Shown here piece after piece: positions 2,584-21,210 of a stretch of 41,812 nucleotides of DNA. Each line of letters starts with the position of its first letter. Within the stretch, counting starts at the first letter, position 1. The notes under the pieces were generated by a model. The model saw only the letters and a list, made by a program, of their open reading frames with translations, was not told the DNA's origin and did not search any database. The stretch comes from Pseudomonadota bacterium (GTDB taxonomy: Bacteria; Pseudomonadota; Gammaproteobacteria; Burkholderiales; Burkholderiaceae_D), in contig JARXKM010000011.1 of assembly GCA_030272785.1 (NCBI GenBank), positions 1 through 41,812 of the forward strand, given 5' to 3'. Position numbers and translations under genes: made by a program.

Positions 2584-5289
2584 TCAGAAGTCGTACGTCA
2601 TGCGCAGGTTGAACGAGCGGCCGATCGGACTGGCGGCGCTGCTCAGGTAACCGAACGTGTAGCCGCTGTGGTTGGTCACTGGCGGCTTTTCATCCAACAG
2701 GTTGGTCACGCCGGCGACGATGGCGATGTGCTTGAAACCCTTGTAGGTGGTGGTCAGGTTCCATACCTTGTACGGCTCGATGTCGCGGAAATACTGGGCT
2801 GCCACCAGGTTCTGGTCGTGGTAGCCCGAGTTGTAGTTCTGCGTCAGCTGCGCACCCAGGTTGCCATAGTTCCAATTCAGGCGCAGGGTGTGCTTCCAGC
2901 GGAATGTCAGGATCGGCAGGCTGCTGGTGGTGCCGTTGCTGGCGACGCCAAAGCGGCCGATGTTCGAGACGTAGTCGCCGCCTTTTTCCAGCTGGTTGTC
3001 GAACTGGGTCAGGTAGGTGCCGTCAAGCTGCACCTTGAAGTTGCCGGCCGCGGTTTGCGGGAAAGCGTAGGCACCCGAGACGTCGATACCGGCCGCTTTC
3101 TGCCCACCCAGGTTCATCGTGACGTTCTTGATGTAGTTGAGGGTGCCGTCGGAATTGCGCACGAACAGCGGCGCGTATTTGACCGGATCGGCGAAGTAGA
3201 CCTGCTCGGGCAGGTTGGCCAGCATGTCGGTCATGCGGATGTTCCAGTAATCGAACGACAGCGTCATGTTCTTGGTCGGTTCGACCACCATGCCGAGCGT
3301 GAAGCCTTTCGATTTTTCCGGAATCAGGTCGGCGTTGCTGCCGGTCTGCTTGGGCAGCGCGACGTTGCACACCGCCGAGGCGACGTAGCCGGGCAGTGCC
3401 TTGCCGCTGCCGGCGACGGCCGGCGTGGCGCTTGGGCACAGCACCGGATCGTCCCATTTCGCGCTGGTGGTGGTGGTGGCGCCCGGCAGGCGGTAGCCGT
3501 AGCGGTCGAACAGGGTCGGCGCGCGGAAGCCGGTGTTGGCCGAGCCGCGGAACATCAAGGTCTTCATCGGCTCAAAGCGGAAACTGGCCTTCGGATTGAT
3601 GGTGTTGCCGAAGTCGCTGAAATGGTCGTCGCGAATTGCCAGGTCGAGGTCGAGCTGCTTGGTGATCGGAATATCGAGTTCCGCAAACAGCGCCGCCACG
3701 TTGCGCGCGCCCTGGCCATGCGATGGGCTCGAGCCGGCGTAGGTGACGATCGAGGTGATATCGAGCTTGGTGTCTTCGGTGGTATCGCGGTGGAAGTCGG
3801 TACCGACCGCCAGCGACATCGCGCCGCCGGCCAGCTGGGTCAGCGCGCGGGTGACGGTCAGGTCGGCGCCGGCGAAGGTGCTCTTCGAGGTGCGGTTGCG
3901 CACGCCGTCGGCGCCGATCGACTTCAGGTAGGCCAGGCCGGTCGCATCCTGCAGGGCGAACGGATTGAGCGAACCGTTGGCCAGGCCGGTGATCAGGCCC
4001 GGACCGCTGACGTAGCCCGATTGGTAGTAGTTGTCGCGCGCGCTGCTGCCGTACACCAAGCCGGCCTTGTAGTCCCACTCGCCGACGCGGCCCTCGTCAT
4101 TGACCGCCAGGCGCTGGTTGATCTGCACGTCCTTGGTCGTGGCCAGGCCGAGGTCGGCCACGCTCCAAGTGACGATCAGCGGTTCGCCTTTCAGGGTGCT
4201 CACCGCCGGCGTGCCGCCGCTGGCGCCCGGATACCACTTGCTGGTCGACGGCAGCGTGGCGCTGATGCCGTTGGCAGCCAGGCTGGTGGTCGGATTCTTG
4301 GTGCCGAGGATGTATTCCTGGCCGCGCAAATAGTCGATGCTCAGGGTATGGTCGTCCGAGAACCGCTTGGTGCCGCGCGCGTAGAACGTCACCTGCTGGT
4401 TGGCGTACAGCGCGGTGCCGTATTCGCTGGCGTTGAGGATACAGGTGCTCTTGGCGCCCTGGATCGAGTATGGCGCGGCGCAGCCGGCGTTGTAGAGCGG
4501 GTTGGCGGCGGTCTTGTTGGCGGTGGTGGTGAAGTTGGCTGGCATCGCATAGCCGCCGCTGCCCAGGGCCGGAGCGCGCCCGATGCTGGTCAGCAGGTCG
4601 ACCGAGCTTAAGTCGGCACGGTCGGAGGCGGCTAGCCGGCTGCGGCGGTGCGCGTCGAGCGTGCCGTACAGGTTCCAGCCGTCGCTGGCCAGGTTACCCT
4701 TGCCGAAGGTGAGGGTGGCGCGCTGTTCGTCGCCGCCGCCCTTTTTCTCCGGCTGGATGTATTGCGCCGTGACGGATGCGCCGTCGAACGAATTCTTGGT
4801 GATGAAGTTGACCACGCCGCCGATCGCGTCGGAGCCGTAGATCGACGAAGCGCCGTCGCGCAGGATCTCGACGCGCGACAGGGCGCTCATTGGAATGACG
4901 TCGAGGTTGGCGTAGCCGTCGGCGATCGCCTCGTTGGCCAGGCGGCGGCCGTTGAGCAGGACCAGCGTGCGGTTCACGCCCAGGCCGCGCAGGTTGATGT
5001 TGGTGCCCGAACCGGCGTTCGACGGCGCCAGCGAGGCCGATTGCGGCAGTGCCATCATGACGTCGGCCAGCGTGGTCATGCCGCGCTGCGCGAATTCTTC
5101 GGCCTTGATGGTGGTCACCGGCAGCGCCGCTTCGGTGGCCAGGCGCTTGATGCTCGAGCCGGTCACTTCGACCCGCTGGATCGGCGCGTCGGCCTGTTGT
5201 GCGTGCGCCTGGCCCATCATCGTCAGCACCGCGAGGGTGATCGATGACAGTACCAGTTTGGACGGCAAGGTATGGGATGGACGTTTCAT
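2584..5289 (-). CDS. TonB-dependent outer-membrane receptor
   Basis: A 901-residue TonB-dependent receptor. It has a Sec signal peptide (cut near residue 30, ...MGQAHA|QQ) and a TonB box-like segment QRVEVTGSSIKR. The plug domain follows (about 50-170, with NINLRGLGVNRTLVLLNGRR and RVEILRDGASSIYGSDAIGGVVNFIT). The rest is a long beta-barrel ending in NLRMTYDF, with the terminal Phe expected by the Bam machinery. The barrel region SANTGFRAPTLFDRYG is typical of the family. The start is supported by AGGAG 9 bases upstream. The substrate cannot be read from sequence. Its position beside pectinases, and a leader element shared with the polygalacturonase gene, suggest uptake of pectin oligomers (inference). 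Confidence 0.92.
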   Translation of the reverse strand: MKRPSHTLPSKLVLSSITLAVLTMMGQAHAQQADAPIQRVEVTGSSIKRLATEAALPVTTIKAEEFAQRGMTTLADVMMALPQSASLAPSNAGSGTNINLRGLGVNRTLVLLNGRRLANEAIADGYANLDVIPMSALSRVEILRDGASSIYGSDAIGGVVNFITKNSFDGASVTAQYIQPEKKGGGDEQRATLTFGKGNLASDGWNLYGTLDAHRRSRLAASDRADLSSVDLLTSIGRAPALGSGGYAMPANFTTTANKTAANPLYNAGCAAPYSIQGAKSTCILNASEYGTALYANQQVTFYARGTKRFSDDHTLSIDYLRGQEYILGTKNPTTSLAANGISATLPSTSKWYPGASGGTPAVSTLKGEPLIVTWSVADLGLATTKDVQINQRLAVNDEGRVGEWDYKAGLVYGSSARDNYYQSGYVSGPGLITGLANGSLNPFALQDATGLAYLKSIGADGVRNRTSKSTFAGADLTVTRALTQLAGGAMSLAVGTDFHRDTTEDTKLDITSIVTYAGSSPSHGQGARNVAALFAELDIPITKQLDLDLAIRDDHFSDFGNTINPKASFRFEPMKTLMFRGSANTGFRAPTLFDRYGYRLPGATTTTSAKWDDPVLCPSATPAVAGSGKALPGYVASAVCNVALPKQTGSNADLIPEKSKGFTLGMVVEPTKNMTLSFDYWNIRMTDMLANLPEQVYFADPVKYAPLFVRNSDGTLNYIKNVTMNLGGQKAAGIDVSGAYAFPQTAAGNFKVQLDGTYLTQFDNQLEKGGDYVSNIGRFGVASNGTTSSLPILTFRWKHTLRLNWNYGNLGAQLTQNYNSGYHDQNLVAAQYFRDIEPYKVWNLTTTYKGFKHIAIVAGVTNLLDEKPPVTNHSGYTFGYLSSAASPIGRSFNLRMTYDF

Positions 5290-5359
5290 GAAGCTGTCTC
5301 CTGCAAATTATCGATAGTTGAAAGAGCGCCTACCTCTTAGGGGTGGCTCAGGTTCAGGG

Positions 5360-5419
5360 CACCTCGCGTACCCTGCGCCACTGCGACGAGGGCCGGCAGT
5401 CAGGCTGCGGCCGAGGTCG
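5360..5419 (-). ncRNA. Candidate structured leader RNA, copy 1 (receptor 5' UTR)
   Basis: On the minus strand this is the 5' leader of the TonB receptor gene, downstream of the promoter at 5489-5517. It can fold as a three-way junction. P1 is ACCUCG with CGAGGU (forward 5412-5417 with 5361-5366). P2 is GGCCG-CAG with CUG-C-CGGCC. P3 is CUC...GGG plus CGC-AGUG-GCG. A second copy at 12505-12561 precedes a polygalacturonase gene and shows paired changes in P2 and P3. I do not recognise it as a known riboswitch class. It could alternatively be a dispersed repeat. Confidence 0.45.
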
Positions 5420-5488
5420 AATGTGGTCAATAATTCAAAGACTGTTGCTCTGGCGGTGGCCGCCAAACGCGCAAGTAGGTGAGCAGTA

Positions 5489-5517
5489 ATCTTATGTCAT
5501 ACGATGTCATATCACAA
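5489..5517 (-). promoter_or_regulatory. Sigma70-like promoter of the TonB receptor gene with internal operator
   Basis: Reading the minus strand, TTGTGA (-35, forward 5512-5517) and TAAGAT (-10, forward 5489-5494) are separated by exactly 17 bp. The spacer and its edge contain a palindrome of form TGnCAT-N3-ATGnCA (forward 5495-5509), so a bound repressor would block polymerase. The expected start near 5482 gives a leader of about 190 nt that carries the candidate structured RNA. This operator differs from the TGG-N5-CCA sites found elsewhere in the region. Confidence 0.55.
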
Positions 5518-5747
5518 GGACTGGATTACCACGGTGGCGGTTTTTGCCACAAAACACCACACTAATTGGCGACGATTGTGCTTGCGGGGGCGATTTACGC
5601 GTATTTACTTGAGGTATGACAACTGATAACCGCCACGGTGAGGATTTTTCTGTCCAATTTCCCATCGTTATCAGCAGCTGCGCACGGTGCTTTCGGCAAG
5701 CGGGGGCAGTGCCCCAGCGAAATTGCTGAAGTGAGCGCAGCAGGACG

Positions 5748-5804
5748 TTGCACTTTGGCCGGGTGCTGACTATACTCGTGTTCGTTGTACGATGACGTAT
5801 AACG
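5748..5804 (+). promoter_or_regulatory. Promoter and palindromic operator of the SMP-30 operon
   Basis: TTGCAC (5748-5753) and TATACT (5771-5776) are separated by 17 bp, a good sigma70 promoter. A 22-bp near-perfect palindrome follows at 5783-5804, with half-sites CGTTGTACG and CGTATAACG around a 4-base centre. It covers the expected transcription start, the typical position for a repressor site. The stretch between this and the receptor promoter (5518-5747) holds no gene that I can see. It contains one isolated GTATGACA (5614-5621) resembling half of the receptor operator. Confidence 0.6.
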
Positions 5805-5833
5805 TGGACGAATTAAATCTGCTAGGGGTTAAC

Positions 5834-6724
5834 GTGAATATTGATCGCATCGGCGCCATCGCCTGCCTGGTGGGCGAAAGCCCGCTGTGGTGCGCCCGCC
5901 GCGCGCTGTGGTACTGGGTCGACATTGCGGCGCGCAAGGTGTGGCGCTTCGATCCGGCCACCGGCGCGGCGCGCGCCTGGCAGACCGACGAAATGGTCGC
6001 CTGCATCGCCCTCGACGACGCCGGTACGCTGATCGCCGGCATGGAGAGCGGGATTTTTCGCCTGCGCCTGGCCGAGGACGGCCCGTCGGTCGATGCCGAA
6101 CGGCTGGCCGCGCCGGCCGAAAGCATGGCCGGGATGCGCTTCAATGACGGCCGCTGCGATCGCCAGGGCCGCTTCTGGAGCGGCACCATGGCGCTCGACA
6201 TGACGCACGCGCCGGCGCTCGGCAAGCTGTATCGCTACACGGCAGGGCAGCCGCTGTCGGCGCCGCTGGTCGACGCGCTGGTGACGCAAAACGGGCTGGC
6301 CTGGTCGCCCGACGGCCGTACCATGTACCTGTCCGATTCGCATGCGTCGCGTCGCGTGGTGTGGGCGTTCGACTACGACACCGACAGCGGCACCCCAAGC
6401 CGGCAGCGGGTGTTTGTCGACATGACGCAGCATCCGGGACGTCCCGACGGCGCCGCCATCGACGTCGACGGTTGCTACTGGACCTGCGCCAACGACGCTG
6501 GCCAGCTGCACCGCTTTACTCCGGCCGGAAAGCTGGACCGCTCGATCGCGCTGCCGCTCGCCAAGCCGAGCATGTGCAGTTTCGGCGGCGCCGGCATGGC
6601 CAGCATGCTGGTGACGTCGATCAGCGCCGGCGCGCCTGCCGGCGACACGCTCGCCGGCGCGGTGCTGATGCTCGATCCGGGTGTGGCCGGCATGCCTGAG
6701 CGACGCTTCGCCGGCGCTGCCTGA
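5834..6724 (+). CDS. SMP-30/gluconolactonase-family sugar-acid lactonase
   Basis: A protein of about 296 residues of the SMP-30/LRE (COG3386) six-bladed propeller family. It hydrolyses sugar-acid lactones with a divalent metal. Visible metal-site segments are GESPLW near the N-terminus, FNDGRCD, NGLAWSPDG and PDGAAIDVDGCYW. I prefer the GTG at 5834, which has AGGGG 5 bases upstream. The in-frame ATG at 5792 lies inside the operator and almost on the predicted transcription start. In this context the likely substrate is galactarolactone made by uronate dehydrogenase, as known for SMP-30 lactonases in hexuronate pathways. An arabino- or galactonolactonase is also possible because the next gene is an aldose epimerase. 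Confidence 0.82.
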   Translation: MNIDRIGAIACLVGESPLWCARRALWYWVDIAARKVWRFDPATGAARAWQTDEMVACIALDDAGTLIAGMESGIFRLRLAEDGPSVDAERLAAPAESMAGMRFNDGRCDRQGRFWSGTMALDMTHAPALGKLYRYTAGQPLSAPLVDALVTQNGLAWSPDGRTMYLSDSHASRRVVWAFDYDTDSGTPSRQRVFVDMTQHPGRPDGAAIDVDGCYWTCANDAGQLHRFTPAGKLDRSIALPLAKPSMCSFGGAGMASMLVTSISAGAPAGDTLAGAVLMLDPGVAGMPERRFAGAA

Positions 6725-7621
6725 ATGCGTACCGTCACGTTGGAAAACGCGCTGCTGCGCGCCGAGATCGTGCCCGAGATCGGCGCCGCGCTGGCGCGCC
6801 TCGACGCGATCGGCGCCGGTGCGCCGGTGCCGGTGCTGCGCCCTTTCGAATTTTCCGGCCAACTGCCGCGGCCGAACCAGCTGGCGTGCATCGCGCTGCT
6901 GCCCTGGTCGAACCGGCTGGCCGGCGGCTTCGATTGCGACGGCCGCAGCTACCGCATCGCGCCCAACCGCGCCGGCGATCCCTACCCGATCCATGGCGAG
7001 GGCTGGCTGCTGCCCTGGCAAGTCGACCGGCAATCCGCTACCCATGTGTCGCTGCTGCTCGAACAATCCGGCGGCGCGCCGTTCTGCTACCTGGCACGGA
7101 TCGACTATGCGCTGTGCGGCGCCAGCCTCGCGGTGACGTTGGCGGTGACCAACACCGGTGCCTGCGCGCTGCCGTTCGGACTGGGCCTGCATCCGTGGAT
7201 GCCGCGCAGCGCCGCGGCGACCTTGCGCGCCCCGGCCGGCGCGGTGTGGCTGAACGGCGCGGACCGGCTGCCGGCGCAGGCCGTGGCGGTGCCGGCGGCA
7301 TGGCGTTTTGCGCAGGCGAGCGGGTTGCCGGCGACACCGGTCGATAACGTTTTTGCGGGCTGGGACGGCTGCGCCGACATCGACTGGCCGGATCGCGGCA
7401 TCACGCTGCGTATCGAGGCCGATGTCGCCCGCTATATCCTGTATGCGCCCGAAGGCGGCGACTTCTTCTGTTTCGAGCCGGTCGACCACCTGATCAACGC
7501 CCACAACCTGCCCGGCGGGCCGGTCGCCAACGGCCTGACGATGCTGGCGCCCGGCCAGCAGTTGCGGCGCCAGTTTACCTTCAGCGTCGCGCAGCGGGAA
7601 CGGGAGCGGGCGCCATGCTGA
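6725..7621 (+). CDS. Aldose 1-epimerase (galactose mutarotase-like)
   Basis: A 298-residue aldose 1-epimerase-family protein. It would interconvert the alpha and beta anomers of a sugar, or of a uronic acid, in the cytosol. Expected catalytic positions are present: His in HGEGW (about 90), His in GLHPWMP (about 156) and Glu in FEPVDHLINAHNLPGG (about 251). Its ATG directly abuts the TGA of the SMP-30 gene (6722-6724), and its own stop overlaps the next start in ATGCTGA, so the three genes are translationally coupled. Pairing a mutarotase with a lactonase fits oxidative sugar catabolism: anomer to lactone to open acid. The sugar itself cannot be told from sequence. Confidence 0.85.
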   Translation: MRTVTLENALLRAEIVPEIGAALARLDAIGAGAPVPVLRPFEFSGQLPRPNQLACIALLPWSNRLAGGFDCDGRSYRIAPNRAGDPYPIHGEGWLLPWQVDRQSATHVSLLLEQSGGAPFCYLARIDYALCGASLAVTLAVTNTGACALPFGLGLHPWMPRSAAATLRAPAGAVWLNGADRLPAQAVAVPAAWRFAQASGLPATPVDNVFAGWDGCADIDWPDRGITLRIEADVARYILYAPEGGDFFCFEPVDHLINAHNLPGGPVANGLTMLAPGQQLRRQFTFSVAQRERERAPC

Positions 7622-8031
7622 GGCCATCGAGCGCGCGGCGCCTCGTCAACCTGCGCAGCCTGGTTGCCGCCTTCGCCGGCCGCGATATCGGCCGGTCGGG
7701 CGTGGCGGCGTTGCTCGGCTGCTCCCTGTCGGCGTCGCGCAACTACCTCGCCGAACTGCTCGACGCGGGTGTGGTGCATTCCCAGCCGGTCAGGCAAAGC
7801 GATGGCGGTGGCGACCGTATCCAGTACCGGCTGAGCGCCGATCCGCGCGCCGTGCGCGACTTCCTCGCCAGCCTGGCCGTGCCGGACGGCGCCGCCGATT
7901 GCAGGGCCGCCGATCCTGCGCGCATCCAGCGCATGTGGCGCGACGCCGATTTCTTCCTCGCCGCCGGCCATGCGCCGGCGCGCCGCGATCCGCTGGTGGC
8001 CGCGCTGTTCGGCGCGGCCGGTCGCTCCTGA
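7615..8031 (+). CDS. Small HTH-domain protein, unrecognised family
   Basis: A 138-residue basic protein that I cannot assign to a named family. Residues about 10-60 (VNLRSLVAAFAGRDIGRSGVAALLGCS followed by LSASRNYLAELLDAGVVHSQPV) read as a helix-turn-helix or winged-helix fold. They suggest a DNA-binding N-terminus followed by a short wing (GDRIQYRLSAD). The C-terminal half is Ala/Asp/Arg-rich, with a conserved-looking MWRDADFFLAAGHAPARRDPLVAALFG. The start overlaps the stop of the epimerase gene by 7 bases, so it is cotranslated with two sugar enzymes. It could be a dedicated local regulator, possibly for the palindrome at 5783-5804 (inference). The operon ends 15 bp from the convergent DUF4861 gene. 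Confidence 0.65.
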   Translation: MLRPSSARRLVNLRSLVAAFAGRDIGRSGVAALLGCSLSASRNYLAELLDAGVVHSQPVRQSDGGGDRIQYRLSADPRAVRDFLASLAVPDGAADCRAADPARIQRMWRDADFFLAAGHAPARRDPLVAALFGAAGRS

Positions 8032-8046
8032 CGCCGGCGATCTGCG

Positions 8047-9267
8047 CTAGTTCGCGCCTGACAGGCTCACCGTCACCGGCGCGCGCACGCGTGCCGACTC
8101 GGCCGCCACATAGCGCGTCCAGTCCTGTTCGGTCGCAAAATCGCCCGACCTGGTCCACGCCGCGCCGACGTAGTAGCGCAACGCCTTGCCGGCGCTGACC
8201 GGCGCGAGCATCAGCGCGTTGCGCGCGTCTTCCGCGTACGCTTGCGCGGCCGCCGCTGGCACGATGACGGCGGTGCCGAACGCGCCGTTGGTTCGCTGCT
8301 CGACCCACTGGATCAGCGCCGCATCGCCGGCCGGGCGGGTGAAACTGACCTTCGCCTCCTGGCCCTTGTCGGTCGGCGCCTTGTTCAGGCCGACGGCCAC
8401 CGTCAGCTGTTTCGGTCCGGTGAAAGAAAAGGTGCTGTCGATCTGGTCGAAATAGTGGCCCGCGTCGACCGTGAAACGCTTCAGTTCCGAGACCTTGACG
8501 CCGGCCGCGTCCCAGCTGTCGTAAGTGAGCTCGAAGATCGCGCGCACCGGCCCGTTGGCCAGCACTTTCCAGGTGCTGTAGTTGGCGCCCGCATGCAGCG
8601 CCTTGCCGTCCCACACGCCGGTGCCGCCGTTGCCGCGCGTGGTGCCGACGTTGTACATGTCGATGCCTTCACCCTCGTCGTGATGGTAGTGGTCATGGCC
8701 CTTGTTGTACCAGCGGTCGACGATCGGGTAGGGAACCCGCTTGAACCAGATGTCCATCCCGCTCGTCACCAGCACCTCCTTGCCGGAGCCGGGCGGCGCC
8801 GGCGCGGCAAGGGCCGGGCCGTAGGTGCGGTGGGCAACCTTGTCGTTCTCCCACGCGAAGTCGTCGAGCCGTTCCGGCACGTAGCGGGCGAACACCTTGG
8901 TCGGGAACGCCGGCGACACCACCGTGGTCTTCTCGACGGTGAAGCTGGCGCTCTTTTCGCCGGCGGCGAAATCATGCTGGAAAATGAGCTCGCCGTAGGC
9001 CACGCCTTCGCCGCGCGGATCCTTCTTCTCCGGTGCCACATTGGTCACCTGGTACGGCAACTGATTGCCGGCCGCATCCTTGACCGCGATCTGCTGCAGC
9101 AGCGCGCCCGGCAGGTGCTGGTTGACGCTGGCCCAGGGGATGGTGATGGTCTCGGCCGGGCGTGCCAGCCCGTTGGTATTGGTGACGGCCACGGTCAGCC
9201 GTTCGGCCGCGCTGGCAAAGCAAGTGGCGCCGGCGGCGGCGGCAAGCAGGAGGAGGCGGATGGTCAT
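8047..9267 (-). CDS. DUF4861-family secreted protein of the pectin operon
   Basis: A 406-residue protein with a Sec signal peptide (cut near residue 20, ATCFASA|AE). It matches my memory of DUF4861: LTVAVTNTNGLARPAETITIPW at the N-terminus and KVFARYVPERLDDFAWENDKVAHRTYGPAL in the middle. WYNKGHDHYHHDEGEGIDMYNVGTTRGNGGTGVWDGKAL is a His/Asp-rich segment that could bind metal or form an active site. This family is often found in polysaccharide utilisation loci near GH105 and pectinase genes, and its activity is not known to me. It is the last gene of the gntR-GH28-GH28-DUF4861 series, 27 bp after the second GH28 gene. Secretion and context suggest a role on rhamnogalacturonan or oligogalacturonides (inference). 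Confidence 0.75.
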   Translation of the reverse strand: MTIRLLLLAAAAGATCFASAAERLTVAVTNTNGLARPAETITIPWASVNQHLPGALLQQIAVKDAAGNQLPYQVTNVAPEKKDPRGEGVAYGELIFQHDFAAGEKSASFTVEKTTVVSPAFPTKVFARYVPERLDDFAWENDKVAHRTYGPALAAPAPPGSGKEVLVTSGMDIWFKRVPYPIVDRWYNKGHDHYHHDEGEGIDMYNVGTTRGNGGTGVWDGKALHAGANYSTWKVLANGPVRAIFELTYDSWDAAGVKVSELKRFTVDAGHYFDQIDSTFSFTGPKQLTVAVGLNKAPTDKGQEAKVSFTRPAGDAALIQWVEQRTNGAFGTAVIVPAAAAQAYAEDARNALMLAPVSAGKALRYYVGAAWTRSGDFATEQDWTRYVAAESARVRAPVTVSLSGAN

Positions 9268-9294
9268 TGCGGATGCCTTATCAAAAATCGCGGC

Positions 9295-11160
9295 CTAGGC
9301 CGACAGGGTGGTGTTGTGGACGCGGCCGGCGATCGTCACGTTTTTCAAGGTCAGGCCTTTCACGTTGTACAGGTAGTAGGGCTGCGCGGCGTTGGCGGGC
9401 GTGCCGAAATCGCAGTCGCTGATGGTGACCTCGCTTACTGGCAGGATCGCCGGTCCCGGTTGCGGTCCGTTGTAGTCGAACGCCACCGGGCCGAGCACCA
9501 CGATCGCCTGGAAGCACGACAGCTGCTTGCCGCCCTTGGTCACATTGCCGACCTTGACGTTCGAGATGTGGACGTTCGACACCACCGGCGGGCGGGTGCG
9601 CACGTTGTCGGCGCGCGGCGAATAATCGCAGTCGAAGGTGATGACCGCGCCGGCCGCCACCGCGACGGTGCTCGCGGCAATCGGCGAGCCTGGCAGCGAC
9701 GCGTAAAACGATGGGCTGGTCTGCACGCCGTTCGGGATGCTGACGTTGCGCACGTAGAAATTGCGCAGGTAGCCGCCGCGATTCATGTTCGTCTTCAGGC
9801 GGATCGCGGTGTTGAGCGGGTTGGTCGCCCAATTGATGTTCTGGAATACCAGGTCCTGCGCGAACACGTTCTGGATCCCGCCCGCCATCTCGCTGCCCAG
9901 GGTCACCGCGCCGTGGCCGCTCTGCATCGTGCACTTCTGGATCACGATGTTCTGCGACGGTCCGTATTGCGTGTCGAGGTCCTTGCCCGACTTGATGGCG
10001 ATGCAGTCGTCGCCGGTATCGAAGGTGCAGCCTTCGACCAGCACGTAGTCGCACGATTCCGGATCGAAGCCGTCGCTGTTCGGCCCCAGGCTGTTCGCAT
10101 ACACGTTGCGGATCACGATGTTGCGGCAGTGGACCGGGTGATGCTGCCAGAACGGCGTCTTGGTCACCTGGTAGCCCTGCAGCAGCACGTTGGTGCAGCC
10201 GATCAGCTGGATCATCGGCGGGCGCAGGAAGTGGCCGAGGCCGAACACTCGGCGCGCCACCGGCACGCCCGCTTCGGACAGCGCCGGCAGGAAGTTCTCG
10301 TCGGCGCGCCAGTCGGCGCCGTTGCCCTCGATCAGGCGGCGCTGGGCGTCGTCGAGCTGCGGCGCGAGCGCGGCCAGCGAGGCCGGATTGAGCGGGTTCG
10401 GCGTGCGCTGCGACAGCTTGTTCTTGCTGTAGTTCGGCGTCGAGCCCTGCGCCACCGCGTCGATGGTCTTGTTCTTGCCTTTCCAGGTCCACCAGCAGTC
10501 GCCGCTGCCTTCGAACGGCACGCCACCCTGGCCGTCGAGGATGCTGGTCCAGTCGTCGCCGGTGAGCGCGATATTGTCCTGGCCGTGCGCGTACACCATC
10601 GACGAGAAGTTCAGGCAGTCGTTGCTCTGCCAGCGCGACAGCACCAGCTTGCCGTTGGCGCCGCAGGCGTAGTCGCCGTGCCTGGCGTAGTCGGCCGGAT
10701 TGTTGCTGAAGTAGACGTGGGCGCCCGCCTTCAGGTGCACGTTCACGTTCGACAGCAGCACGATCGGGCCGGCGCAGTACCAGTCGCCGGCCGGGATCAC
10801 GACGCGCCCGCCGCCGGCCTGGTGACAGGCCGCGATCGCCGCTGCGAAGCCGGCGTAGCAGTCTTTCGCGCCCGGCGCCGGCGTCGGCATCTGGGCCTGA
10901 TCCTCGAACGAGTGCCAGGCTTTCACCGTCACCAGCTGGCATGGCGCGGCGCCGAACTCGGTCACCAGGTAGTCGACCTGGCGGAACGACACCGGCTTGG
11001 CCAGGCGGTCGATGATGGCCTGTGCCTGCAGCCACGGGTCGCCCGCGCTGGCGGCCGCCGCCGCTGCCGCCGCCGCTTTCGCAACGGGCGTGAAAGCCAG
11101 TCCGGCGGCGCCGAACGCCTGGAGCACGCCGCGGCGTGTCGAATCGATAGTGTCTCGCAT
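9295..11160 (-). CDS. GH28 polygalacturonase (exo-type-like), Tat-exported
   Basis: A 621-residue GH28 right-handed beta-helix enzyme that would hydrolyse alpha-1,4-galacturonan. The family motifs are GPNSDGFDPES (about 360), TGDDCIAIKSGKD (about 383), SGHGAVTLGSE (about 416) and RLKTN (about 453). They supply the three catalytic Asp residues, the His and the Arg/Lys pair. The long N-terminal extension and the GPNSDG variant resemble exo-poly-alpha-galacturonosidases. The start at 11160 puts a twin-arginine signal at the N-terminus (STRRGVLQAFGAA), followed by an unusual run of about 11 alanines. A longer frame exists to 11217 but overlaps the preceding gene. It follows the other GH28 gene by 8 bp. 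Export through Tat suggests folding in the cytoplasm. Confidence 0.88.
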   Translation of the reverse strand: MRDTIDSTRRGVLQAFGAAGLAFTPVAKAAAAAAAAASAGDPWLQAQAIIDRLAKPVSFRQVDYLVTEFGAAPCQLVTVKAWHSFEDQAQMPTPAPGAKDCYAGFAAAIAACHQAGGGRVVIPAGDWYCAGPIVLLSNVNVHLKAGAHVYFSNNPADYARHGDYACGANGKLVLSRWQSNDCLNFSSMVYAHGQDNIALTGDDWTSILDGQGGVPFEGSGDCWWTWKGKNKTIDAVAQGSTPNYSKNKLSQRTPNPLNPASLAALAPQLDDAQRRLIEGNGADWRADENFLPALSEAGVPVARRVFGLGHFLRPPMIQLIGCTNVLLQGYQVTKTPFWQHHPVHCRNIVIRNVYANSLGPNSDGFDPESCDYVLVEGCTFDTGDDCIAIKSGKDLDTQYGPSQNIVIQKCTMQSGHGAVTLGSEMAGGIQNVFAQDLVFQNINWATNPLNTAIRLKTNMNRGGYLRNFYVRNVSIPNGVQTSPSFYASLPGSPIAASTVAVAAGAVITFDCDYSPRADNVRTRPPVVSNVHISNVKVGNVTKGGKQLSCFQAIVVLGPVAFDYNGPQPGPAILPVSEVTISDCDFGTPANAAQPYYLYNVKGLTLKNVTIAGRVHNTTLSA

Positions 11161-11168
11161 GGTCTGTC

Positions 11169-12446
11169 TTATTGATTGGTGAGTGTGGTCGGGAAGGGGG
11201 CGAAGCGCGCGCCGCAATCGATGCCTGCCTGGCCGGGCGGATTGAACTGGCCGCTGACGCGGGCAAACTCGGCCTGCACATCGGGCTTGCCGGCGACGGC
11301 GACGTCGCGCAGCGCGAGCAGCAGCGGGTGCTGCTCGTCATACCCCTGCAGGAACACCTTGCCGGCGGTGGTGCTGTGCACGCGCTCCATCGTGATGCCG
11401 GCGTACGACGGAATCAGCGCGCCGGGCGGCTGCGGTTCGTAGTGGGTGCCGATGAAGATCGGCGCCTTGACGTTGCGCAGGCAGACGTTGCGGTACACGA
11501 TGCCGCGCACCTCGCCGCCGCGCGTGTCGTTGCTCTTGATGCGCAGGCCGGCGGTGGTGCCGTCCATGTCCAGATCGTCGACCAGCACGTTGCGCACGCC
11601 GCCGTTGGTCTCGCTGCCGATCGACATGCCATGGCCGCTGTAGAAATGGTTGTGCAGGATCGAGATGTTTTCGGTCGGCCCGTTGTTGCCGGCCTTGACC
11701 GCCACGTTGTCGTCGCCGGTGCGGATGAAGCTGTGGGCGATCGTCACGTTGCGCGACGAGATCGGGTCGATGCCGTCGGTGTTGCGCGCGTCGTGCGGCG
11801 TGTCGATGCGCACGCCCCAGGCGGTGAAGCCGTCGACCCGGTTCAGCGTGACGTGGAAGTTGGGCGAATTGCGCAAGGTGATGCGGTGCATGGTGAATTC
11901 GCGCGCGCCGTTCACCTCGATCAGGCGCGGCACGTTCTGGCGCCCTTTTTCCTTCTGCGCGCGGCGCGCGATCTGCCACCACGATTCGGTTTTGCCGTCG
12001 ATCAGGTGGCCGCCCTGGCCGTCGATCTCGCCGTCGCCCATGATGCCGGCGCCGGCGACGCCGTCGGCGGTGATCAGGGGCCGGCAGCCGCGGCCCAGCG
12101 CGTCGATGGTGCCGCAGGTGCCGGCGCCGCGGTCATACGCTGTCGGATCGGTGCTGGCGTACAGCGTGACGCCGGCGTCGATCGCCAAGGTCACGCCGGC
12201 GCGCATCATCAAAGGACCGGTGGTGAAGGCGCGCTGGCCATTGGCCGGCGCCAGGTGCAGCGCATGGCCGCTCGCGCATTGGTCGAGCGCCGCCTGGATG
12301 CGCGCCGCGTCGTTCGCCTGGGTGGACGCCGGCGTCAGCACCGCGCACGCCGGCGGCATCACCGGTTCGGTGACGCTGCGGCTGTCCTGGGCCTGGGTGG
12401 CGCCGCACAATGCCAGCAAGGCAAGTGCGGAAAATGGCAGTTTCAT
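11169..12446 (-). CDS. GH28 polygalacturonase, Sec-exported
   Basis: A 425-residue GH28 enzyme with a Sec signal peptide (MKLPFSALALLALCGATQAQ). The GH28 motifs are all present between about residues 220 and 310: NTDGIDP, TGDDNVAVKAG, SGHGMSIGSE and RIKSN. These include the three Asp, the His and the Arg/Lys needed for hydrolysis of polygalacturonate. I took the start at 12446, where the signal peptide begins. The frame is open further upstream, but that part coincides with the candidate structured leader. A CATCCC/GGGATG hairpin lies just before the start codon (forward about 12453-12478) and could limit ribosome access. It is the first pectinase after gntR, with a 145-bp gap. Confidence 0.9.
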   Translation of the reverse strand: MKLPFSALALLALCGATQAQDSRSVTEPVMPPACAVLTPASTQANDAARIQAALDQCASGHALHLAPANGQRAFTTGPLMMRAGVTLAIDAGVTLYASTDPTAYDRGAGTCGTIDALGRGCRPLITADGVAGAGIMGDGEIDGQGGHLIDGKTESWWQIARRAQKEKGRQNVPRLIEVNGAREFTMHRITLRNSPNFHVTLNRVDGFTAWGVRIDTPHDARNTDGIDPISSRNVTIAHSFIRTGDDNVAVKAGNNGPTENISILHNHFYSGHGMSIGSETNGGVRNVLVDDLDMDGTTAGLRIKSNDTRGGEVRGIVYRNVCLRNVKAPIFIGTHYEPQPPGALIPSYAGITMERVHSTTAGKVFLQGYDEQHPLLLALRDVAVAGKPDVQAEFARVSGQFNPPGQAGIDCGARFAPFPTTLTNQ

Positions 12447-12504
12447 GGATATGCATCCCCGTGATGATCGGCTGGGATGGCCGGGCCGGCCACCTCGAAA
12501 GGAA

Positions 12505-12561
12505 CACCTCGCGTGCTCCGTGCCGCTGCAGACGAAGGCCACGCGCAGGTGGCCGAGGTCG
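12505..12561 (-). ncRNA. Candidate structured leader RNA, copy 2 (polygalacturonase 5' UTR)
   Basis: On the minus strand it folds like the element at 5360-5419. P1 is ACCUCG/CGAGGU (forward 12554-12559 with 12506-12511). P2 is GGCCAC/GUGGCC. P3 is UUC/GGA plus UGC-AGCG-GCA. Compared with copy 1, a G-C pair becomes A-U in P2 and C-G pairs become U-A in P3, while the bases CGUC, GCAG and ACGCGAGGUG are kept. It sits between the gntR stop and the polygalacturonase start, 58 bases before the latter. Confidence 0.45.
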
Positions 12562-12591
12562 CAGGCGGGGTAGGAAAATTGCGTGTACTGC

Positions 12592-13290
12592 TTAGCCGCG
12601 CGAAAAGGTGCGGGTGACCCGTTCAAGGTGCGCCCGCATGGCTTTCTTCGCTTCGGCCGGGTTGCGCGCGGCGATCGCCTCGACGATGCGGCGATGGTCC
12701 GCCAGCGTCTCGAGGCGCAGTTCTTCGGTCTGAAAATGCTCCTTCAGCTTGTGCCACAGGTGACCGCGCTGATCCCACAGGTAGCCCATCACGCCGACCA
12801 GCGCGCTGTTGCCGGTGGCGCGCGCGATCGCCAGGTGGAAGTTGCGGTCGGCCTGCTCGTTGCTCGACTTGTCGGCGTGCTGGAGCTCCATCTCCTCGAC
12901 GGCGCGCAGAATCGCGTCGACCGCGCTGTCGGTGGCCATGCGCGCGGCGATCGCCGCCACTTCGGCCTCGATCAGGCGGCGCGCCGAGAGCACCTCGAAC
13001 GGGCCGGGTCCGGCTTCCGGCAGGGCCTCGTCGGACTCGGGCGCTTCGCTGACGTAGACGCCGGAACCGCCGCGCACTTCGATCACGCCGCCCAGTTCGA
13101 GCGCGAGCAGCGCTTCGCGCAGCGAGGCGCGGCTGACGCTCAGGTGGATGGCCAGGTCGCGCTCGGACGGCAGCCGTTCGCCCGGCCCGATTGACTGTTC
13201 GCGGATTAGCGCCTGGATGCGGTCGGCGACCACCCGGTACAGGCGCGGTTCCTGGCTGACTGGTTCGTTCGGCGGAGCTATTTTCTTCAT
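12592..13290 (-). CDS. GntR/FadR-family (FCD domain) transcriptional regulator
   Basis: A 232-residue GntR regulator. The N-terminal winged helix (about 15-80) reads ERLPSERDLAIHLSVSRASLREALLALELGGVIEVRGGSGVYVSE. The C-terminal FCD domain (about 95-225) includes ARRLIEAEVAAIAARMA, the metal/ligand-site-like NFHLAIARATGNSALV, and DHRRIVEAIAARNPAEAKKAMRAHLERV. It is most likely a repressor that senses a hexuronate or a pathway intermediate. It is divergent from garD-udh and shares with it one operator embedded in two opposed promoters at 13317-13358. The same operator pair precedes the GH105 gene and the CE12/CE8 operon, so I infer autoregulation and control of the pectin genes. The exact ligand is not readable. 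I see no strong ribosome binding site. Confidence 0.88.
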   Translation of the reverse strand: MKKIAPPNEPVSQEPRLYRVVADRIQALIREQSIGPGERLPSERDLAIHLSVSRASLREALLALELGGVIEVRGGSGVYVSEAPESDEALPEAGPGPFEVLSARRLIEAEVAAIAARMATDSAVDAILRAVEEMELQHADKSSNEQADRNFHLAIARATGNSALVGVMGYLWDQRGHLWHKLKEHFQTEELRLETLADHRRIVEAIAARNPAEAKKAMRAHLERVTRTFSRG

Positions 13291-13316: not shown

Positions 13317-13358
13317 ATTGTAAAGTGGTTAGGCCACTTTTACAATGTGGACTAGCCA
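13317..13358. promoter_or_regulatory. Overlapping divergent gntR / garD promoters with paired GntR-type operators
   Basis: Plus strand: TTGTAA (13318-13323), 17 bp, TACAAT (13341-13346). Minus strand: TTGTAA (13340-13345), 17 bp, TACAAT (13317-13322). The -35 of one promoter is therefore the -10 of the other. The shared spacer holds operator TGGTTAGGCCA (13326-13336). A second site TGGACTAGCCA lies at 13348-13358, over the expected garD transcription start. The centres are 22 bp apart, two helical turns. Confidence 0.65.
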
Positions 13359-13426: not shown

Positions 13427-15019
13427 ATGACCACTGCGCCGCTCGCCGCCGCCGTCTCAGCGCCAACACCATCGCCATCGCCTATGCCGCGTTACATCCG
13501 CATGCACGACAACGACAACGTCGCCATTGTCGTCAACGACGGCGGCTTGCCGGCCGGCGCCGTGTTCGGCGACGGCCTGGTCCTGCGCGAAGCGGTCCCG
13601 CAGGGGCACAAGGTGGCGCTGGTCGACATCGCCGCCGGCGCGCCGGTGTTGCGCTATAACGTCGCCATCGGCACCGCCGCGCGGGCGCTGGCGGCCGGCA
13701 GCTGGATCGCCGAGGCCGAGGTGGTGATGCCGGCCGCGCGCGGGCTGGAGAACCTGCCGGTCGGCACCCGCGGCCAGCAGGCGCTCGAGCCGCTTGAAGG
13801 CTACACCTTCGAGGGATATCGCAATGCCGACGGCAGCGTCGGCACCCGCAACATCCTGGCCATCACCACCACGGTGCAATGCGTGGCCGGCGTCGTCGAA
13901 CATGCGGTCGCCCGCATCAAGGCCGAGCTGCTGCCGAAGTACCCGAACGTCGACGACGTCGTCGGCCTCGAACATACCTACGGCTGCGGCGTCGCGATCG
14001 ACGCGCCGGGCGCCGAGATCCCGATCCGCACGGTGCGCAACATCAGCATGAATCCGAATTTCGGCGGCCAGGCGATGCTCGTCAGTCTCGGTTGCGAGAA
14101 GCTGCAGCCGGCGCGCCTGTTCCCGAAAGGCTCGATCCCGATCGCCAACAACGGCGGCGAAGTCGCCCACGTCTGCCTGCAGGACCAGGCCCACGTCGGT
14201 TTCATGTCGATGGTCGCCTCGATCATGCAGACGGCCGACCGGCAGCTGGCCCAGCTCGACCTGCGCCGGCGCGAAACCTGCCCGGCGTCGGAGCTGGTGG
14301 TCGGCATGCAGTGCGGCGGCAGCGACGCGTTTTCGGGCGTCACCGCCAATCCCGCGCTCGGTTTCGCCACCGACCTGCTGGTGCGCGCCGGCGCCACCGT
14401 GATGTTCTCCGAAACGACCGAGGTGCGCGACGGTATCGACCAGCTGACCGCGCGCGCCGCCAGCCCGGCGGTGGCCGAGGCGATGATCGCGCAGATGGCC
14501 TGGTACGACGCCTACCTCACGCGCGGTGGCGTCGACCGCAGCGCCAACACCACGCCCGGCAACAAGAAGGGCGGCCTGTCGAACATCGTCGAGAAGGCGA
14601 TGGGATCGATCGTCAAGTCGGGCAGTTCGGCCATCTCTGGCGTGCTGGCGCCGGGCGAAAAGCTGACCCGCAAAGGCCTGATCTACGCCGCCACGCCGGC
14701 CAGCGATTTCATCTGCGGCACCCTGCAGCTGGCCGCCGGCATGAACCTGCACGTGTTCACCACCGGCCGCGGCACGCCGTACGGGCTGGCGGCGGTCCCG
14801 GTGATCAAGGTGGCCACCCGTACCGAACTGGCCAAGCGCTGGCACGACCTGATGGATCTCGATGCCGGCACCATCGCCAGCGGCGAGGCGAGCATCGCCG
14901 ACGTCGGCTGGGAACTGTTCCACATGCTGCTCGCCGTGGCCAGCGGCCGCAAGACCTGGGCCGAACAGTGGAAGCTGCATAACGCGCTGGTGCTGTTCAA
15001 CCCGGCGCCGGTGACCTGA
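13427..15019 (+). CDS. garD: Galactarate dehydratase GarD
   Basis: A 530-residue UxaA/GarD-family dehydratase. It converts meso-galactarate to 5-keto-4-deoxyglucarate. I favour GarD over altronate dehydratase because, from memory, many blocks match the E. coli enzyme (523 residues) closely. These include [99 protein letters not shown] and the C-terminus FNPAPVT. The SAF-like domain is N-terminal. The start has AAGGAA 8 bases upstream. It is followed 47 bp later by udh, whose product supplies galactarolactone, so this two-gene operon covers the oxidative galacturonate route. It is controlled from the shared divergent promoter with gntR. Confidence 0.93.
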
Positions 15020-17434: not shown

Positions 17435-17476
17435 ATTCTAAAGTGGTCTGACCAAGTATGCAATGCGGACTAACCA
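17435..17476 (-). promoter_or_regulatory. GH105 gene promoter with paired GntR-type operators
   Basis: On the minus strand, TTGCAT (forward 17458-17463), 17 bp and TAGAAT (forward 17435-17440) form a sigma70 promoter. The spacer contains the perfect inverted repeat TGGTCTGACCA (17444-17454). A second site, CGGACTAACCA (17466-17476), is just upstream of the -35 box. The centres are 22 bp apart, as at gntR. Confidence 0.65.
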
Positions 17477-20853: not shown

Positions 20854-20894
20854 ATTCTATAGTGGCCTGTCCAGTTGTGCAATTGGACAGACCA
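20854..20894 (-). promoter_or_regulatory. CE12/CE8 operon promoter with paired GntR-type operators
   Basis: On the minus strand, TTGCAC (forward 20877-20882), 17 bp and TAGAAT (forward 20854-20859). The spacer holds TGGCCTGTCCA (20863-20873). A second site TGGACAGACCA (20884-20894) sits directly upstream of the -35 box. The centres are 21 bp apart. The layout is the same as at the gntR and GH105 promoters. Confidence 0.65.
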
Positions 20895-21210
20895 CTTTTT
20901 TTGTAACGCGCTGGCCGCGTCGCCGACGCCTGCGCGCGTCGGCTCGCTGCATTGCGTGGAGCGCGCAACCGATGCGACGTTGGTATTTACGCGCGAGCTT
21001 GATATTAATATTTCGCCACTAGAATGGTTCTACTGAGCATATTAACAAACGTCAATGCTGCCGGCATTCGCTCGCGATAACACTTTTCAAATACTTTATT
21101 GAGCGACCCCAACGGTGAATTTCTGGCAAGGTTTTACCATGAATGGCGCGCTGAACAATATTAGCGCAGTCAAAAAGTAGACCCGGAAATAATGCAAGAA
21201 GGATAAAATA
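20895..21210. other. AT-rich intergenic stretch before asnB, no gene seen
   Basis: This 316-bp stretch is clearly richer in A and T than its surroundings, mostly after 20980. It has small inverted repeats (for example GCGCT/AGCGC around a 10-base loop near 21150-21170). I see no convincing open frame. A TTGATA/TAGAAT pair near 21008-21034 has only a 15-bp spacer, so I do not call a promoter. Confidence 0.4.

Follow-up and report, generated by a model that had tools for sequence, protein, structure and literature searches.

A conserved candidate cis-regulatory RNA upstream of pectin-use genes in Oxalobacteraceae

In this study, we examined a stretch of 41,812 nucleotides (nt) of Burkholderiales DNA (contig JARXKM010000011.1; hereafter, the window), which is a pectin locus and which carries, on the minus strand, two copies of a short conserved leader sequence: copy A, ahead of a gene for a TonB-dependent receptor, and copy B, ahead of a gene for a GH28 polygalacturonase. 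A preliminary description had reported both copies with their common core, and we confirm both from the window sequence. Through comparison with relatives in other genomes, we found that both copies represent a leader RNA that is conserved and limited in its taxonomic range. The earlier view that this is a cis-regulatory leader RNA of no known class holds, on the strength of covariation, gene context and a negative Rfam comparison; the secondary structure that had been drawn for it was wrong.

The pectin locus and its leader copies

Copy A occupies positions 5355 to 5430 (minus strand), 65 nt ahead of the start codon at 5289 of the receptor gene (2584 to 5289, minus strand; Pfam Plug and TonB_dep_Rec b-barrel domains). 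Copy B occupies positions 12500 to 12572 (minus strand), 53 nt ahead of the start codon at 12446 of the GH28 gene (11169 to 12446, minus strand; Pfam Glyco_hydro_28, E value of 2.4e-59). The core extents given in the preliminary description were right for the shared sequence and too short for the whole element, which is longer than first noted because a further conserved upstream strand pairs with the linker. The element, made of three helices (P1 to P3), reaches beyond both reported ends: upstream of the reported cores is the 5′ strand of P1 (to 5430 in copy A and 12572 in copy B), and downstream of them is the 3′ strand of P3 (to 5355 and 12500). Both copies fill all 73 positions of our model R2, at 74.6 bits (A) and 63.0 bits (B), each copy being in the training set.

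A pattern of the conserved ends, ACCTCGGCC..ACGCGAGGT, has exactly two matches in the 5.4-Mb genome, and its reversed control has none. A third, diverged copy was found by BLAST on another contig (G000:C63:45665-45737), ahead of a second GH28 gene. Searched with R2, the genome yields just these three copies at E values of <1e-6, the next best match having an E value of 6.8.

The stop codon of a gene for a GntR/FCD regulator (12592 to 13290, minus strand) lies ca. 20 nt upstream of copy B; the closest NCBIfam to this regulator is UxuR, followed by ExuR, both under cut-off. Beyond it lies a gene of the galactarate/altronate dehydratase family (13427 to 15019, plus strand; Pfam GD_AH_C, GD_AH_second and SAF), and a DUF4861 protein (8047 to 9267) is encoded between the GH28 and receptor genes. 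The remaining locus genes specify a GH88 protein, a pectinesterase, a GDSL esterase (for which CE12 is our own label) and a protein of the NAD-dependent epimerase/dehydratase family (Pfam: Epimerase only), which we take to be a uronate dehydrogenase. A PDB search with the receptor returned general TonB receptors only and gave no hint of its substrate.

A revised secondary structure

Comparison supports a fold of two hairpins in series. The first, P1/P2, is imperfect and contains a CYC/YUC internal loop; the second, P3, carries the invariant cap ACGCRAGGU. In copy A, P1 (5378 to 5426, placed from alignment A7, described below) pairs CCA (5426-5424) with UGG (5380-5378), its third pair being A-U where most copies have G-C. 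P2 (5385 to 5418) pairs GAC (5418-5416) with GUC (5387-5385) and GGCC (5412-5409) with GGCC (5394-5391) around a CUC/CUC internal loop, and P3 (5356 to 5374) pairs AGGGUAC (5374-5368) with GUGCCCU (5362-5356) across the loop GCGAG (5367-5363); both helices are seen in the sequence, and both appear when the flanked copy is folded to its minimum energy. In copy B, the sequence gives a P1 (12523 to 12568) of CCG (12568-12566) with CGG (12525-12523) plus UGC (12563-12561) with GCA (12529-12527); a P2 (12531 to 12560) of GAC (12560-12558) with GUC (12533-12531) and GGCC (12554-12551) with GGCC (12540-12537), around a CUC/UUC internal loop; and a P3 (12501 to 12519) of GGAGCAC (12519-12513) with GUGUUCC (12507-12501) across the loop GCGAG (12512-12508). 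All of these helices are on the minus strand. With its flanks, copy A has the revised P1/P2/P3 as its minimum-energy fold, flanked copy B has another fold, and the z scores of the flanked copies against shuffles are -2.10 (A) and -2.22 (B).

Our main covariation counts come from A7, an alignment of 75 distinct sequences. Its source was 128 matches to an earlier model, R1 (74 in A5 and 54 in A6), from which nine rows were removed by hand (both L140 rows, which are a second view of L129, and L137, L141, L142, L143, L145, L135 and L138). From the 119 left, 78 that were shorter than 85 nt and not near-identical were kept and 75 were aligned, with L069, L133 and the plus-strand match of L129 excluded. 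In A7, where the selection of well-formed rows biases counts toward the fold, 88.6% of the cells of the revised fold are paired (78.5% in shuffles and 32 to 48% with slid partners), 15 of the 20 pairs have two-sided changes, and there are 162 compensatory cells against 54.0 (standard deviation, 7.1) in shuffles. An alignment of named loci, comprising 70 distinct rows from 71 good and 4 weak loci that were not hand-picked but were fitted to the model, has 91 compensatory cells against 39.5. Among the variants that keep their pairs, GAC/GUC of P2 is replaced by GAG/CUC, GAA/UUC and AAC/GUU, and GGAGUAC/GUGCUCC of P3 is replaced by CAGGAUAC/GUGUCCUG and CGGCAUAC/GUGUGCCG. Parsimony on a receptor-protein tree (46 leaders), which was built without the RNA sequence, counts 38 pair-keeping double changes, versus 1 to 5 for slid partners. 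Covariation beyond phylogeny, which the preliminary description had marked for checking, is thus found: it exceeds both the shuffle and the slid controls and recurs on a tree that is independent of the RNA.

G-U pairs are plentiful, one P3 pair being U-G in 40/75 sequences of A7 and 43/70 rows of the named loci, as would suit an RNA but not a DNA dyad. Invariant in all 75 sequences are C19, the GGC at positions 64 to 66, which lies in the strand between P2 and P3, and the ACGC and AGGU that flank a single R. GCRA is the sequence of a GNRA tetraloop.

The closing stem of the preliminary description, ACCUCG/CGAGGU, behaves otherwise. None of its six pairs has a two-sided change among the 75 relatives, and its covariation score equals that of shuffles; the second pair is disrupted in 14 and the fourth in 19 of the 75 sequences, and on the receptor-protein tree the stem has 11 breaks and no double change. 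The three-way junction that it was thought to close is absent from the minimum-energy folds of both isolated cores: that of core A contains the stem, and that of core B has neither stem nor junction. We also tried and rejected two other pairings. The first was a guessed switch in which the YUC strand would pair instead with the 5′ strand of P3. This helix is only marginally supported: its covariation score is reached by 40/500 shuffles, and it is 73% paired (26 to 65% with slid partners), a percentage reached by 71/500 shuffles; it was not adopted because P3 accounts better for the same columns. A pseudoknot between CGAG of the P3 cap and a 3′ YUCG strand is 91% paired, yet its covariation is no different from that of shuffles.

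Searches and taxonomic range

A degenerate pattern drawn from the three copies matched 11 places in 8 of 145 genomes of the family (reversed control, 1 place), all with the same anatomy and 42 to 77 nt ahead of a start codon. Model R1, made of 11 sequences, matched 120 of 392 family genomes at an E value of ≤0.1, a threshold that admits chance matches, and 92 regions from this search were aligned with the earlier loci. Model R2, made of 75 sequences, matched 80 of the 392 genomes at an E value of ≤0.001, in 8 of 44 genera and with 1 to 5 copies each. Since the models grew step by step out of their own matches, the bit scores of members are not independent evidence; covariation and gene context are.

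Among 399 genomes of the order, searched under stricter filters that miss weak matches, strong R2 matches were present in only two, both of the window's family; nine others gave E values of 0.008 to 0.037, fewer than the number expected by chance for 399 genomes at an E value of ≤0.05. A scan of 84,980 species genomes with an exact pattern, which was derived from members and which diverged relatives elsewhere may escape, returned 81 stretches, 80 of them taken as loci (the named loci). R2 matches 71 of the 80 at an E value of ≤1.2e-8. These are from Duganella, Massilia, Rugamonas, Pseudoduganella and Undibacterium, together with metagenome-assembled genomes (MAGs) labelled Oxalobacteraceae, Burkholderiaceae or Burkholderiales; Duganella and Undibacterium were checked as Oxalobacteraceae, to which Massilia, Rugamonas and Pseudoduganella also belong. 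The remaining nine have a weak R2 match (L160, L183, L209 and L211, excluded from later counts) or no match (L163, L179, L184, L190 and L212); they come from Amycolatopsis, Mycobacterium, Nocardioides, Pandoraea, a Rhodocyclaceae MAG, an Acidobacteria MAG and others outside the family, and we take them as chance. A search of plasmid DNA with copy A gave no match.

Gene context across copies

Gene context was counted over 141 deduplicated copies, with classes assigned by the similarity of same-strand downstream genes to a fixed set of reference proteins; L204, which ends at the element, was left out. A pectin-use gene lies downstream on the same strand in 134/141 copies, and a gene of a recognised type, porins included, starts within 420 nt on the same strand in 136/141. 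Scatter without regard to strand or context, raised earlier as the mark of a repeat family, is therefore not what we see. The largest class is that of TonB receptors (84), followed by proteins with a Pectate_lyase_4 domain (19), a short secreted protein (16) and GH28 (12); the rest are a CE12-like esterase, a GH43 protein and a TAT-type GH28 (1 each), porins (2) and unclassified copies (5). Of the last, L085 has a strong element before a TonB receptor of another type. L137, L141, L143 and L145 are weak and are taken as false, which brings the true set nearer to 137. Between the element and the start codon, the median spacing is 63 nt in the receptor class, 51 nt in the GH28 class and 152 nt in the pectate-lyase class.

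The regulator gene is also a recurrent neighbor. Directly upstream of 76/83 receptor leaders is a same-strand gntR homologue (median gap, ca. 77 nt; minimum, ca. 19 nt), and over all classes 80/134 leaders have a same-strand gntR roughly 14 to 327 nt upstream, these distances being approximate for the A5 and A6 loci. In the named loci, the surroundings of the receptor repeatedly include homologues of the dehydratase, dehydrogenase, GH28 and esterase genes of the window. At the genome level, GH28 is encoded in 146/392 family genomes but is found in 78/80 genomes with the motif versus 68/312 without (Fisher P = 1.8e-38, uncorrected for genome relatedness). The two motif genomes that lack it are G087, which has a porin match after gntR, and G183, in which the contig ends after a short secreted protein. 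The weak porin match L135 lies just behind a gene for a PfkB kinase with best resemblance, under cut-off, to 2-keto-3-deoxygluconate kinases.

A pectate lyase gene follows 15/16 short-protein leaders, and the 16th locus stops at 663 nt. Here, a secreted protein of ca. 180 to 210 amino acids with no assigned function stands between RNA and pectate lyase (L097, L223 and similar loci; 15/16); it is possible that it is a surface partner of the lyase. The one such protein that was scanned has a PEP-CTERM motif slightly under the Pfam cut-off. Pectate lyase genes also follow the element in all five further regions retrieved once R2 had been run; one (L250) is the L142 site, and four are new. The pectate-lyase leaders L108, L115, L119, L123 and L126 carry, as seen by eye, an extra conserved stretch near CACGTGGGTACGGATC, tens of nt ahead of the start codon, which is perhaps a second promoter or element. 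In Massilia horti (L167, L168, L229 and L238), the RNA precedes a unit of secreted protein and pectate lyase, a TAT-type GH28, a GH43 gene and a CE12-like esterase gene. At L129/L140 (G329:C1:226375-226814), divergent genes for a receptor and a secreted protein stand back to back, each with its own RNA copy, an arrangement that favors a leader RNA.

Operator-like sites

An operator-like palindrome, TTGGTCNGACCAA (≤3/12 mismatches), lies upstream of 16/16 short-protein copies (L097, L100, L101, L103, L104, L106, L110, L113, L087, L105, L116, L129, L133, L142, L223 and L232), where about one would be expected, and in 15 of the 16 TAGAAT occurs a few bases past it. This suggests that, in the short-protein class, the transcript begins ahead of the element and that a DNA-binding regulator exerts a separate control. 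Such sites are not enriched ahead of receptor (4 versus 4.3 expected), GH28 (1 versus 0.7) or pectate-lyase (1 versus 0.9) copies. The window has TTGGTCNGACCAA-type palindromes at 17443-17455 (upstream of the GH88 gene), at 20883-20895 (upstream of the GDSL esterase gene) and, by eye, at 13325-13337, in the gap between gntR and the dehydratase gene. Those at 17443 and 20883 are within chance, as many being found in 17/100 shuffles; the window palindromes may perhaps be the operator of the ExuR/UxuR-like regulator.

Discussion

We are highly confident that the element is real and that it can be put forward as a new class of candidate cis-regulatory RNA linked to the use of pectin. What it does is less certain. 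We regard as evenly balanced the reading in which both copies belong to an undescribed class of leader RNA of ca. 60 to 90 nt, attached to the pectin/galacturonate regulon of the Oxalobacteraceae, that acts as a metabolite-sensing riboswitch. More specifically, and more tentatively, the class could sense a pectin-derived sugar acid and control outer membrane uptake together with secreted pectinases, beside the GntR-type sensor; the sugar acid may be galacturonate, galactarate, 5-keto-4-deoxyglucarate or 2-keto-3-deoxygluconate. Under such a scheme, the RNA would form the start of the mRNA or would lie, within the transcript, between the regulator and receptor genes. Its invariant bases would together build a single tertiary fold in which the GNRA-like loop of P3 packs on P1/P2, and this fold would bind a small metabolite of pectin breakdown, such as galacturonate, galactarate or a keto-deoxy acid. 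Genes for uptake and extracellular degradation would thereby respond at the RNA level, besides the GntR-type regulator, through Rho-dependent termination, mRNA decay or translation.

A number of our results weigh against the riboswitch reading. On the receptor-protein tree there are 41 pair-breaking changes, 21 of them in inner P1 (columns 13-15/59-61), which is paired in only 41 to 43 of the 75 sequences. The isolated cores are no more stable than shuffles (z scores of -0.23 for A and -0.44 for B). In the free ensemble, P1 is rarely formed in receptor leaders (median, 0.06; P3, 0.96), and in GH28 leaders P1 and P3 each have a median of 0.02. These predicted values would fit an element that forms only with the help of a partner, but a poor thermodynamic prediction would also give them. 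The porin matches L135 and L138 have a degenerate 5′ half and score 34 to 35 bits, an R2 search of the window places no element at its cytosolic pathway genes, and the class is restricted to one family, whereas wider occurrence might be expected of a riboswitch that senses a common sugar acid. As for the read-out, among the 66 leaders from A7 whose Shine-Dalgarno exposure was analyzed, forcing the fold shifts the predicted exposure by >0.2 in 6/43 receptor leaders (median difference, 0.016), 4/9 GH28 leaders and 0/14 others; as a general read-out, Shine-Dalgarno masking is not supported. By eye, no terminator with a U-run was noticed in the printed leaders. We found no clear expression platform in these leaders, and Rho, mRNA decay or some other process could therefore provide the read-out.

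The same want of an expression platform would suit a leader bound at the P3 cap and GGC strand by a trans-acting protein or small RNA (sRNA) that would repress or activate the pectin genes as a whole. One element on many scattered transcripts of one regulon is what a trans factor needs, the longest invariant run sits in a single hairpin cap, and the R of the cap could pair with a U of an sRNA. We nonetheless think this explanation unlikely, though it deserves serious attention: the conserved bases extend across P1, the internal loop and P3, exceeding the needs of a single site, and P3 without the rest of the element is not enriched (of 40 pattern matches in 10 genomes, 27 belong to full elements, and the 13 left over compare with 18 for the reversed control). 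Additionally, no gene for an RNA-binding protein was noticed beside the copies among the selected neighbors that were scanned. Improbable, in our judgment, is an element for mRNA processing or stabilization that gives a stable 5′ end and, for example, sets the receptor level above that of a possibly cotranscribed gntR. The 76/83 receptor copies behind a same-strand gntR, some within ca. 19 to 29 nt, accord with such a role, as does an additional stable hairpin that often follows P3 (median z score of -2.15 in the first 40 of 83 receptor leaders and -1.96 in the 12 GH28 leaders; -0.96 to -1.6 in other classes). However, the role has no need of the invariant ACGCRAGGU, GGC and C19, and 54/134 leaders are not behind a same-strand gntR, including all PL1 and short-protein leaders and 10/12 GH28 leaders.

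It could also be asked whether a DNA operator or mobile palindromic repeat has been misread as RNA, given that P3 is also a near-dyad in DNA and that some species have several copies per genome. This we consider very improbable. The stem sequences vary yet stay paired, with many G-U pairs; copies are few (1 to 5 per genome), and 136/141 have their recognised same-strand gene within 420 nt; the divergent L129/L140 genes have two copies, one for each gene; and all 16 short-protein copies have a separate operator-like palindrome upstream.

If the riboswitch reading is true for a sugar acid, these bacteria would have an RNA sensor of plant cell wall breakdown beside a GntR-type protein sensor. The element is small and strongly conserved, and it occurs in named species of Duganella, Massilia, Undibacterium, Rugamonas and Pseudoduganella. 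The single pathway to which it is linked is well understood and offers few candidate ligands, and a ligand search and a reporter test are therefore immediately feasible. Should a ligand be found, a sugar-acid sensor would join the list of riboswitches and would offer a means of following how soil and freshwater bacteria use plant polysaccharides.

Regarding known systems, the comparison with Rfam proposed in the preliminary description gave no match: Rfam 15, at the gathering score, had none in the window or in 13 further locus sources, and a search at a relaxed E value found nothing around copy A and two weak, unrelated matches around copy B. The motifs of a 2017 survey of 224 candidate RNAs were compared through Rfam only. 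In literature listings and in parts of PMC2864571, we found no RNA element controlling a pectin or hexuronate regulon. A passage of that paper (Weinberg 2010; PMC2864571) gives, without an Rfam number, an uncertain motif from the same bacterial order, Burkholderiales-1; its table entry neither shows nor excludes identity with the leader RNA.

The ExuR/UxuR (GntR-FCD) factors serve the same regulon, and a homologue is encoded just upstream of 76/83 receptor copies. However, these are DNA-binding proteins, and the operator-like site seen here, TTGGTCNGACCAA, differs in sequence from the leader RNA. Two consecutive leader hairpins are also a feature of the ANTAR-target dual-hairpin RNAs and of mini-ykkC/guanidine-II, which have paired hexaloops or ACGR loops; our element likewise has two hairpins, but the cap is conserved in the second alone, as GCRA(G). 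Unlike the metabolite riboswitches that have Rfam models, it is without an Rfam match and is confined to one bacterial family. It resembles metabolite riboswitches in its leader position, its covarying stems, its invariant loop and linker bases and its coherent regulon, and, in some species, in having several copies in one genome, located on different transcription units.

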